Source of the DNA: Galactobacter caseinivorans
Lineage (GTDB): Bacteria; Actinomycetota; Actinomycetes; Actinomycetales; Micrococcaceae
DNA length: 64,000 nt
Direction of reading: 5' to 3'
NCBI RefSeq assembly: GCF_003640665.1
Contig: NZ_QQXL01000001.1
Location: 682,001 to 746,000 of the forward strand
Numbering within the stretch: the first letter of the stretch is position 1; the number at the start of each line of letters is the position of its first letter. This document shows positions 6,953-30,668 of this stretch, piece by piece. Below the pieces are notes generated by a model. That model did no database searches. It had not been told where the DNA came from and worked only from the letters and a program-made list of their open reading frames with translations. Both the position numbers and the translations under genes were made by a program.

Positions 6953-6972
6953 CGTCCGGGGCAAGGGGCCGC

Positions 6973-7032
6973 AAGCGGGCTTATCGCTGGTGAGCGGGCG
7001 TATGGGGTGCTTGGCGTCGATAGGGCCGCTTG
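6973..7032. repeat. 60-bp palindromic repeat, copy A1
   Basis: The outer arms are AAGCGGGCTTATCG and CGATAGGGCCGCTT, separated by a centre with GAGCGGGCG and GGTGCTTGG. This is the most divergent left half-centre of cluster A. Confidence 0.85.
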
Positions 7033-7124
7033 TCCGGACTGCTTGGGCGGCGTGCGGATGGGCGACGGCGTCCGGTCGCCTCGCGAGCGGCGGCGTGCCC
7101 GGGGCGGCGTGGCGAGGGGAGGGG

Positions 7125-7184
7125 AAGCGGGCTTATCGCGGAGAAGCGGGCGTGTGGGGTGCTTGGTGTCGATAGGGCCGCTTG
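7125..7184. repeat. 60-bp palindromic repeat, copy A2
   Basis: The outer arms are AAGCGGGCTTATCG and CGATAGGGCCGCTT. An inner AAGC/GCTT dyad sits at element positions 20-23 and 37-40. Confidence 0.88.
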
Positions 7185-7267
7185 GGGCGGCGTGCCGGTG
7201 GGCGACGGCGTCTGGTCGCCTCCCGTGCGGCGGCGGCGTGCCCGGGTCGGTGGGGCGAGGGGAGGGG

Positions 7268-7327
7268 AAGCGGGCTTATCGCGGAGAAGCGGACGTGTGG
7301 GGTGCTTGGCTTCGATAGGCCCGCTTG
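7268..7327. repeat. 60-bp palindromic repeat, copy A3
   Basis: The outer arms are AAGCGGGCTTATCG and CGATAGGCCCGCTT, which pair over 14 positions with one G-T wobble. Confidence 0.88.
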
Positions 7328-7406
7328 GGGCGGCGTGTTGGTGGGCGACGGCGTTCGGTCGACTCCCGCGTGGCGGCGTGCTCGGGGCGGCGGGGCGAGG
7401 GGGTGC

Positions 7407-7466
7407 ACGCGGGCTTATCGCGGAGAAGCGGGCTTGTGGGGTGCTTGGCGTCGAAAGGCCCGCTTG
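7407..7466. repeat. 60-bp palindromic repeat, copy A4
   Basis: The left arm is slightly degraded at its first bases (ACGCGGGCTTATCG). The right arm is CGAAAGGCCCGCTT. It ends 20 bp before the stop of the convergent minus-strand gene. Confidence 0.85.
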
Positions 7467-27991: not shown

Positions 27992-28735
27992 ATGAGCACT
28001 CCCATCTTGCGCGCCGACGGGCGCACCCCTGAACAGCTGCGTCCCATCACCATCACCCGTGGGTGGACCACGCAGGCCGAGGGCTCGGCCCTGATCGAGT
28101 TCGGCAACACCCGCGTGCTGTGCACGGCCTCCTTCACCGAGGGCGTGCCGCGCTGGCTTAAGGGAGAGGGCAAGGGCTGGGTCACCGCCGAGTACGCCAT
28201 GCTTCCGCGCGCCACCAACACCCGCAATCAGCGCGAGGCCGTGAAGGGCAAGATCGGCGGCCGCACGCACGAGATCTCCCGGCTGATCGGTCGCAGCCTG
28301 CGCTCCATCATCGACACCAAGGCTTTGGGCGAGAACACGATTGTGTTGGACTGCGACGTGCTCCAGGCGGACGGCGGCACCCGCACAGCGGCCATCACCG
28401 GCGCGTTTGTGGCGCTGGCGGATGCCGTGACGTGGGCTCGCGGCGAGAAGCTGGTGCGCAAGGATGCCAAGGTCCTGACGGACACGGTCTCCGCGATCTC
28501 CGTCGGCATCATTGACGGCGTCCCCATGCTGGATCTTCCCTACGTGGAAGACGTGCGTGCGGAGACCGATATGAACGTGGTCGTCACCGGGGCCGGCGCC
28601 TTTGTTGAGGTGCAGGGAACCGCCGAGGGAGCACCGTTTGTGCGCTCCGAGCTGGATCAGCTTCTGGACCTGGCGCTGGCGGGCAACCTGGAACTGGCCA
28701 CCATCCAGCGCTCTGCCTTGGGCTGGGACGCGTGA
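27992..28735 (+). CDS. rph: Ribonuclease PH
   Basis: RNase PH trims tRNA 3' ends phosphorolytically. The protein has 247 residues: [42 protein letters not shown] at the start, then [14 protein letters not shown] and [17 protein letters not shown], the conserved phosphate- and RNA-binding arginines. [24 protein letters not shown] gives the catalytic Asp region. The ATG at 27992 has GGAAGG close by and a TACGAT 7 nt upstream. The last bases overlap the rdgB GTG. Confidence 0.97.
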
Positions 28736-29361
28736 GTCAGCCGCTACTGGTCCTGGCCACGCACAATCAGGGCAAGCTCTCGGAACTGCGGGCGCTGCTG
28801 GACGGCGCTGTGCCGGGTTTGGACGTGAACACGCAGGTCGTGGACGCGGGGGCCGTTGGCGCCCCCGATGTGCGCGAGACCGGCGTGACGTTCCAGGAGA
28901 ACGCGCTGCTCAAGGCTCGCGAGGTCGCCGAGCACACCGGGCTCATCGCGGTGGCGGACGATTCGGGTTTGGCCGTTGATGTGTTGGGCGGTGCCCCGGG
29001 ATTCCTCTCAGCACGTTGGGCAGGCAAGCACGGCGACGATCAGGCCAATCTGGACCTGCTCCTGGCGCAACTGGGGGATATCGAAGACCCCGAGCACCGC
29101 CGCGCCGGATTCGTCTGCGCCGCCGCCGTGGCTGTGCCCGGCGGCGAGGACCGCGTGCACATGGGCGAGCTGAGCGGTACGTTGCTGCGCGAGCCCCGCG
29201 GTGCCGGCGGCTTTGGCTACGACCCGATCCTGCTGCCGGAGGGGGAGACGCGGTCCTGCGCGGAACTCACCGCCGCGGAGAAGAACGCGATCAGCCACCG
29301 CGGCAAGGCCTTCCGAGCGTTGATCCCGGACCTGGTTCGCCTGCTCGCGGAGCGCGTCTAG
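28732..29361 (+). CDS. rdgB: XTP/dITP pyrophosphatase (RdgB/HAM1)
   Basis: This enzyme hydrolyses non-canonical purine nucleoside triphosphates, keeping dITP and XTP out of DNA. The protein has 209 residues: [16 protein letters not shown] at the start (substrate loop), [26 protein letters not shown] in the middle (catalytic acids), and [11 protein letters not shown] and [13 protein letters not shown] at the end. The GTG start overlaps the rph stop (GTGA), an arrangement common in actinobacteria. The gene ends at a repeat-rich convergent intergenic region. Confidence 0.96.
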
Positions 29362-29386
29362 CTTTTCATGGGGGCGGCCCTGTGCG

Positions 29387-29446
29387 AAGCGGGCTTATCG
29401 ACGCGGAGCGGCCTTGTGGCCTGCTTGGGAGCGATAGGCCCGCTTG
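29387..29446. repeat. 60-bp palindromic repeat, copy B1
   Basis: The outer arms AAGCGGGCTTATCG and CGATAGGCCCGCTT pair over 14 positions with one G-T wobble. The inner AGCGGCC and GGCCTGCT pair around a TTGT loop with one bulge. Confidence 0.9.
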
Positions 29447-29520
29447 GTCCGGCCGCCTGCTCGACGGCGCCCGGTCGCCTTGGCCTCGCTGGCCGCCCGT
29501 CGCTCGACTGTGGGCGTGGG

Positions 29521-29555
29521 GACGCCTCGGTCACCGTGGAGGTGACCGAGGCGTC
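29521..29555. terminator. Perfect 35-bp hairpin, first copy
   Basis: A 15-bp perfect stem GACGCCTCGGTCACC with its complement and loop GTGGA. It is terminator-like and could serve either converging gene. Confidence 0.7.
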
Positions 29556-29578
29556 GTCGTGCGTAGGGTTCCCGATCG

Positions 29579-29638
29579 AAGCGGGCTTATCGACGTGAAG
29601 CGGCCTTGAACCCTGCTTGGGAGCAATAAGCCTGCTTG
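29579..29638. repeat. 60-bp palindromic repeat, copy B2
   Basis: The left arm is AAGCGGGCTTATCG and the right arm CAATAAGCCTGCTT, with two changes that weaken pairing. Confidence 0.87.
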
Positions 29639-29660
29639 GTTTTTGGCGGGTCCGGGGCGG

Positions 29661-29720
29661 GAGCGGGCTTATCGACGTGAAGCGGCCTTGAAGCCTGCTT
29701 GGGAGCGATAGGCCTGCTTG
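29661..29720. repeat. 60-bp palindromic repeat, copy B3
   Basis: The arms are GAGCGGGCTTATCG and CGATAGGCCTGCTT. It lies 22 bp after B2 and has the same centre (GAAGCGGCCTTGAA). Confidence 0.87.
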
Positions 29721-29795
29721 ACCCGGCGGTGTGCCCGACGACGCCCGGTCGCCTTGGCCGCGCGACGTCGCCCGTCGCTCGACTGTGGGCGTGGG

Positions 29796-29830
29796 GACGC
29801 CTCGGTCACCGTGGAGGTGACCGAGGCGTC
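29796..29830. terminator. Perfect 35-bp hairpin, second copy
   Basis: Identical in sequence to the hairpin at 29521-29555, inside a duplicated segment of about 70 bp. Confidence 0.7.
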
Positions 29831-29852
29831 GTCGTGCGTGGGTTCTCGATCG

Positions 29853-29912
29853 AAGCGGGCTTATCGACGTGGAGCGGCCTTGTGGCCTGCTTGGGAGCGA
29901 TAGGCCTGCCGG
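29853..29912. repeat. 60-bp palindromic repeat, copy B4
   Basis: The left arm is AAGCGGGCTTATCG; the right arm ends CGATAGGCCTGCCGG, so the last pairs are lost. It ends 25 bp before the dedA stop. Confidence 0.87.
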
Positions 29913-29936: not shown

Positions 29937-30668
29937 TTAGCCCTGGGCCAGCTTCTTGTTCTTCTTGGACTCCGAACGGGCCTTGATGACCTCGATGATG
30001 ATCGGCAGCACGGAGACAAGGACGATGGCCAGGAAGATGATGTCGATGTTCTTGCCGACCCATTCGAACTGGCCCAACCACACGCCGAGCAGCGTCACGC
30101 CGCCGCCCCAGAGCACGGCGCCGATGACGTTGTAAAGGAAGTACTTGGCCTTGTTCATGCCGGCCACGCCGATGATCACGGGGACAAAGGTGCGCACGAT
30201 CGGCACAAAACGCGCCAGGATCAGGGCCTTGCCGCCGTGGCGCTCAAAGAAGACGTGCGCCTTCTCCACATGTTCGCGCTTGAAGATCTTGGAATCGGGC
30301 TTGTTGAAGATGGCAGGCCCGGCCTTGGAACCGATCAGATAGCCGCACTGATTGCCAATGATTGCCGCGACAACAATAATCAGGATTGCCGCCCACAGGT
30401 TGAAGTGAATCACCCCGGTGGCCATCAGCATTCCGGCCGTGAACAGCATGGAATCGCCCGGCAGGAAAAAGCCCACCAGCAACCCGGTTTCGGCGAAGAT
30501 GATGCCCGCGATCAGCAGGATCACCCACGGGCCAAGCGCGGGATTATCGAGAAAGACAGCAGGGTTGAGCCAATCCGGGAGGAATGCAGCACCCACAGGA
30601 AGGGCAGTGACCCAGGAGGAAAAGGCTTCGATCGAGCCGGCGAACGTGGTCGTCAGAGAGGGAAGCAT
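29937..30668 (-). CDS. DedA family membrane protein
   Basis: This is a polytopic membrane protein of 243 residues with the DedA/SNARE-associated core: ETGLLVGFFLPGDSMLFTAGML, then FKREHVEKAHVFFERHGGKALILARFVPIVRTFVPVIIGVAGM. The last part contains the conserved E-R-G-K and F-R-P-R type motif. DedA proteins act in envelope lipid translocation and membrane-potential homeostasis. The ATG at 30668 has TAGAAT 6 nt upstream. It is divergent from the exonuclease gene, with only 45 bp between start codons. Confidence 0.92.
   Translation of the reverse strand: MLPSLTTTFAGSIEAFSSWVTALPVGAAFLPDWLNPAVFLDNPALGPWVILLIAGIIFAETGLLVGFFLPGDSMLFTAGMLMATGVIHFNLWAAILIIVVAAIIGNQCGYLIGSKAGPAIFNKPDSKIFKREHVEKAHVFFERHGGKALILARFVPIVRTFVPVIIGVAGMNKAKYFLYNVIGAVLWGGGVTLLGVWLGQFEWVGKNIDIIFLAIVLVSVLPIIIEVIKARSESKKNKKLAQG

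Follow-up and report, generated by a model that had tools for sequence, protein, structure and literature searches.

The genome of Galactobacter caseinivorans carries a dispersed family of 61-bp palindromic repeats, grouped in arrays nearly all of which are oriented with replication. These repeats are interpreted as lineage-specific REP-like extragenic palindromes which were probably mobilized as single strands, are now orphaned, have been kept at gene 3′ ends and are amplified locally. This interpretation, whose mechanism we infer, commands about half of our confidence.

The window, which is the whole stretch of 64,000 nucleotides that was analyzed, contains eight copies of the element in two clusters, all on the + strand. 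Four of these lie between positions 29386 and 29912: B1 (29386..29446, 80.5 bits under covariance model R2), B2 (29578..29638, 70.6 bits), B3 (29660..29720, 77.7 bits) and B4 (29852..29912, 70.7 bits). B2 and B3 are separated by a spacer of 21 bp, giving a spacing of 82 bp. The other four occupy positions 6972-7466, namely A1 (6972..7032, 64.9 bits), A2 (7124..7184, 72.7 bits), A3 (7267..7327, 76.8 bits) and A4 (7406..7466, 59.6 bits). Scores of the window copies thus span 59.6-80.5 bits (R2, no filters), while the next-best match in the window reaches 17.8 bits, opposite-strand readings of the copies aside. A 29-base pattern of the element gave four matches versus none in 100 shuffles. A preliminary description of this DNA had proposed that the element occurs four times more some 22 kb from one cluster, that its copies are equally long and that the window is otherwise free of it; the R2 scores bear this out, every window copy being 61 bp. 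It had also placed the B cluster in the convergent space between rdgB and dedA, correctly so: the left flank is an rdgB/Ham1 gene (28732..29361, + strand; PF01725, E 4e-61) and the right flank a gene of the dedA/VTT family (29937..30668, − strand; PF09335, E 3e-22).

The spacers of the B cluster hold recognizable features of their own. A terminator-like hairpin, whose strand is unassigned, lies within the first long spacer (29521..29555), and its second copy (29796..29830, strand likewise unassigned) arose when the spacer was duplicated locally. Congeners have a hairpin shaped like that at 29521..29555 in their rdgB/dedA gap. The motif CGACGGCGNNNGGTCGCC is present on the + strand at 29462..29479 and, with one mismatch, at 29736..29753; spacers of the other window array carry it at 7063-7080 and 7203-7220. 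Congener gaps carry a similar form of this motif, and on contig C16 its orientation does not track that of the element.

The consensus of the 61-bp element, GAAGCGGGCTTATCGACGnGGAGCGGGCTTGAGGGGTGCTTGGGGGCGATAGGCCTGCTTG, is self-complementary, column i pairing with column 62-i. The outer stem is about 14 bp long, and an inner hairpin is complete in only some copies. Each unit is predicted to form one long two-tier hairpin, which would fold best on one strand. Non-Watson-Crick positions on the element strand are G.T in 210 cases versus A.C in 21. Predicted folding favors the element strand in 72/72 copies when RNA parameters are used and in 70/72 under DNA parameters, a result that is partly built in because copy orientation was assigned with a model containing wobble pairs; the agreement with GC skew described below is not. 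The G.T excess and strand asymmetry are not proof of selection, because C-to-T or A-to-G pressure on an exposed strand could produce the same pattern. Changes on both sides of the family's own stem are fewer than in shuffles, so that no covariation is shown there and support for the fold comes from energy and symmetry. The boundaries at 61 bp are sharp. A palindrome extending past 61 bp was considered and rejected, as the flanks of a copy pair no better with each other than mismatched flanks do.

In the genome containing the window (2.95 Mb in 19 contigs, 99.8% complete), a covariance-model scan found 72 full copies in 27 groups; the scan scored the 150 best candidates, hence a few weak copies could be missed. 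High G+C and genes such as NucS suggest an actinobacterial affiliation. Shared flanking sequence suggests that the group at the end of contig C19 and the group at the start of C13 may be one locus, in which case the arrays number 26. They are spread over seven contigs, although one stretch of C11 longer than 400 kb has none, and the start of C15 carries two degenerate copies. When 780 kb of other stretches were rescanned, no additional full copy came up.

Within an array every copy points the same way, always direct and head-to-tail, and the arrays grew locally by head-to-tail duplication. Identity of copies is 93% within arrays versus 79% between them, and the nearest relative of a copy lies in its own array in 59 of 61 cases. 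Near-identical copies across arrays are absent (maximum 95%), and recent movement is therefore not seen. In the B cluster, the duplicated block includes the terminator-like hairpin of the gap. Six arrays have a spacer of exactly 21 bp, with spacer sequences that are alike within arrays and unrelated between them. General helical phasing of the spacers was rejected, since the signal is driven by the 82-bp class and is not significant beyond it (p = 0.06). Spacers contain about 5% A on the element strand versus about 16% in ordinary gaps (for instance window 29639-29659), and T exceeds A in the spacers of 18/18 multi-copy arrays. Coincidental local slippage without dispersal would agree with the evident duplication within arrays, yet it has next to no chance of being the explanation: the same 61-bp unit occurs at about 26 separate loci on seven contigs, and this genome-wide count refutes it. 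The earlier characterization of the element as a dispersed, non-random intergenic palindromic repeat, unlike simple slippage, holds.

The strongest regularity of the family is its polarity, which only the whole genome reveals and which the preliminary description does not mention. When the G-rich strand is taken as the leading strand, the element strand has leading-strand sense, equivalent to the lagging-strand template, in 25/26 arrays by GC skew (p about 8e-7); because the contigs are not ordered into a closed chromosome, the skew is weak, at a few per cent, and the array regions have a high G content of their own, the polarity rests mainly on array-free stretches. The sole exception is a single copy at C14:189079. 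Nearly all copies on each contig point one way: + copies accompany mostly positive skew on C11, C12, C13, C15, C19 and the part of C14 to the right of dnaA, which lies near 72 kb on that contig, and − copies accompany mostly negative skew on C16. Six arrays whose 5′ neighbor gene is opposed still follow replication. Array orientation tracks replication and not transcription where the two disagree.

Gene context is less strict. All mapped sites are intergenic or at gene edges, and many arrays begin directly past a terminator-like hairpin, as judged by eye. About 9/24 array sites are convergent, 12/24 co-directional and 3/24 divergent, where genes missed by the caller were added by eye from open frames and several assignments rest on weak gene calls. 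Ordinary gaps, classified with a home-made codon-usage gene caller, comprise 65 convergent, 237 co-directional and 90 divergent cases. Convergent gaps are thus enriched about 3-fold (9/24 array sites versus 65/392 gaps; Fisher p = 0.02), and the lower share of divergent sites does not reach significance (p = 0.32). Convergent or co-directional sites make up 21/24 of those classified, though ordinary gaps are already 77% of these types. A preference of arrays for gene ends is plausible; REPs sit mostly between unidirectional and convergent genes (PMC3733652). The preliminary description had suggested that convergent gaps are targeted. Within the window the element does lie in convergent gaps only, and genome-wide such gaps are moderately enriched, but most sites are co-directional or divergent, and placement in convergent gaps only fails when flanking orientation is counted across the genome (9, 12 and 3 of 24 sites).

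A different palindrome occupies a corresponding place in related species. A search of 119 other genomes from the same bacterial family, three congeners included, did not detect the 61-bp element, under stricter filters that lose weak matches. The preliminary description had named absence of copies from relatives as grounds against its reading; at sequence level none were found, but the congeners hold a different palindrome in the same gap. In two of them a palindrome beginning AATCGGAGTGGGTTTGGTACG lies in the rdgB/dedA gap, the third retains a remnant of it, and in one congener the gap past the ATP-synthase genes contains it as well. This palindrome is 58 bp long and lies mostly in convergent gaps (loci L109, L110 and L117). 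Its arms covary: both partners have changed in seven pairs, and none of 500 shuffles reached its covariation score. Judging by counts of the arms, one congener may have some 20-30 copies. Palindrome families are thus replaced by others, while the rdgB/dedA gap, at least, is repeatedly occupied. A search for named relatives gave three exact matches, all in other phyla, which were read as chance. No literature was found on repeats of this sort in this bacterial group.

The element is a REP-type extragenic palindrome in manner, yet it lacks several features that define REP/RAYT membership. Like REPs, REPINs and BIMEs, it is a short multi-copy intergenic palindrome that is clustered and often lies past gene 3′ ends, in families that differ between species. 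Unlike them, it is 61 bp long as opposed to 20-40 bp (PMC3733652; PMC2817692), and its arrays are without alternating or inverted doublets. REPs with a RAYT (TnpA-REP) differ in having a GTAG head and a Y1 transposase. At the element there is no unpaired GTAG or CGTC head, no conserved flank and no conserved tetramer at either boundary. The suggestion that a RAYT gene might lie elsewhere in the genome found no support: a Y1/RAYT transposase (PF01797) was not found in this 99.8% complete genome or in three congeners, while control genomes gave matches. Reverse transcriptase and tnpA genes were not found in the genome either, and an arm search revealed no larger element flanked by the arms of the repeat. 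CGTC-tagged REPs are likewise palindromic and without a cognate transposase, but they have a stem of 8-9 bp, an unpaired CGTC head and a CCA tail (PMC3733652), whereas the element has CGTC inside its stem region and a stem of about 14 bp outside an inner hairpin. For REP-like repeats that lack a dedicated transposase, the literature leaves the question of origin open (PMC3733652).

Another comparison is offered by IS200/IS605 elements and their non-autonomous derivatives, whose orientation is fixed relative to the fork, as it is in 25/26 arrays here. These elements use hairpins as single strands, and insertion into the lagging-strand template, which IS608 and ISDra2 target, would give the observed polarity (PMC6006769). 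They differ from the present family in that no tnpA was found in its genome and its movement is not evidenced. A single-strand, replication-linked origin appears to be the best-supported mechanism. Weighing against it are the failure to find Y1 transposase or reverse transcriptase genes, the lack of an unpaired head, a conserved flank or an evident target duplication, and the divergence of copies across arrays. The unit would have spread as a hairpin recognized in the single-stranded lagging-strand template, much as IS200/IS605 elements and REPs transpose, and its orientation relative to the fork would be fixed because of that recognition. Insertions near promoters may have been purged, leaving copies mainly past gene 3′ ends. 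The spreading enzyme is presumably now absent, and copies would therefore evolve by local tandem duplication and homogenization inside each array.

A role for the host at gene 3′ ends is a rather unlikely alternative, in which the element acts as RNA to block read-through or protect transcript ends and arrays give a stronger effect. It would accord with the enrichment of convergent gaps, with the many arrays that begin just past a terminator-like hairpin and with the different, covarying palindrome of the congeners, which is found in this very gap between rdgB and dedA and for the most part at convergent sites. Against it, orientation follows replication where transcription disagrees, three arrays are divergent and a terminator-like hairpin distinct from the element is already present in the rdgB gap. 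Polarity is instead what would be expected of a polar chromosome-organization site, at which a protein that tracks or reads fork direction binds the repeated AAGC-NN-GCTT dyads; it would also fit that six arrays keep a spacer of exactly 21 bp, equal to two helical turns, although the spacer sequences are unrelated. Such a site is improbable, given that there are only about 26 of them, that C11 has none over more than 400 kb, that the element was not found in the congeners and that phasing outside the 82-bp class is not significant. The short palindrome and its sharp ends would also suit a miniature inverted-repeat element mobilized on double-stranded DNA by a DDE transposase. This origin is very unlikely: double-strand insertion gives no evident reason for the polarity, the arm search showed no longer element with the same arms, and no target duplication is evident in the flanks listed, the congeners being too distant for an empty site to be aligned.

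A broader and doubtful proposition is that palindromic repeats spread or act in step with the replication fork without a Y1 enzyme, and that sister species use unrelated palindromes at the same sites. If true, hairpins of this type would have to be made and placed by an enzyme or host process not yet described. With its small size, near-complete polarity, sharp ends and palindrome swap between sister species, this family is a clean test case for the spread of hairpins through single-stranded DNA at the fork.

Ten array loci were compared with known RNA families; only a tRNA and a c-di-AMP riboswitch were detected, neither of which is the element. The c-di-AMP (ydaO) riboswitch lies close to one array, at L055 2600-2761. 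At L048 1-1200, a region with a lipoprotein-like ORF is duplicated in tandem, with a degenerate element at each copy. The flank of this region resembles the end of C14, which suggests that C14 and C15 may adjoin.
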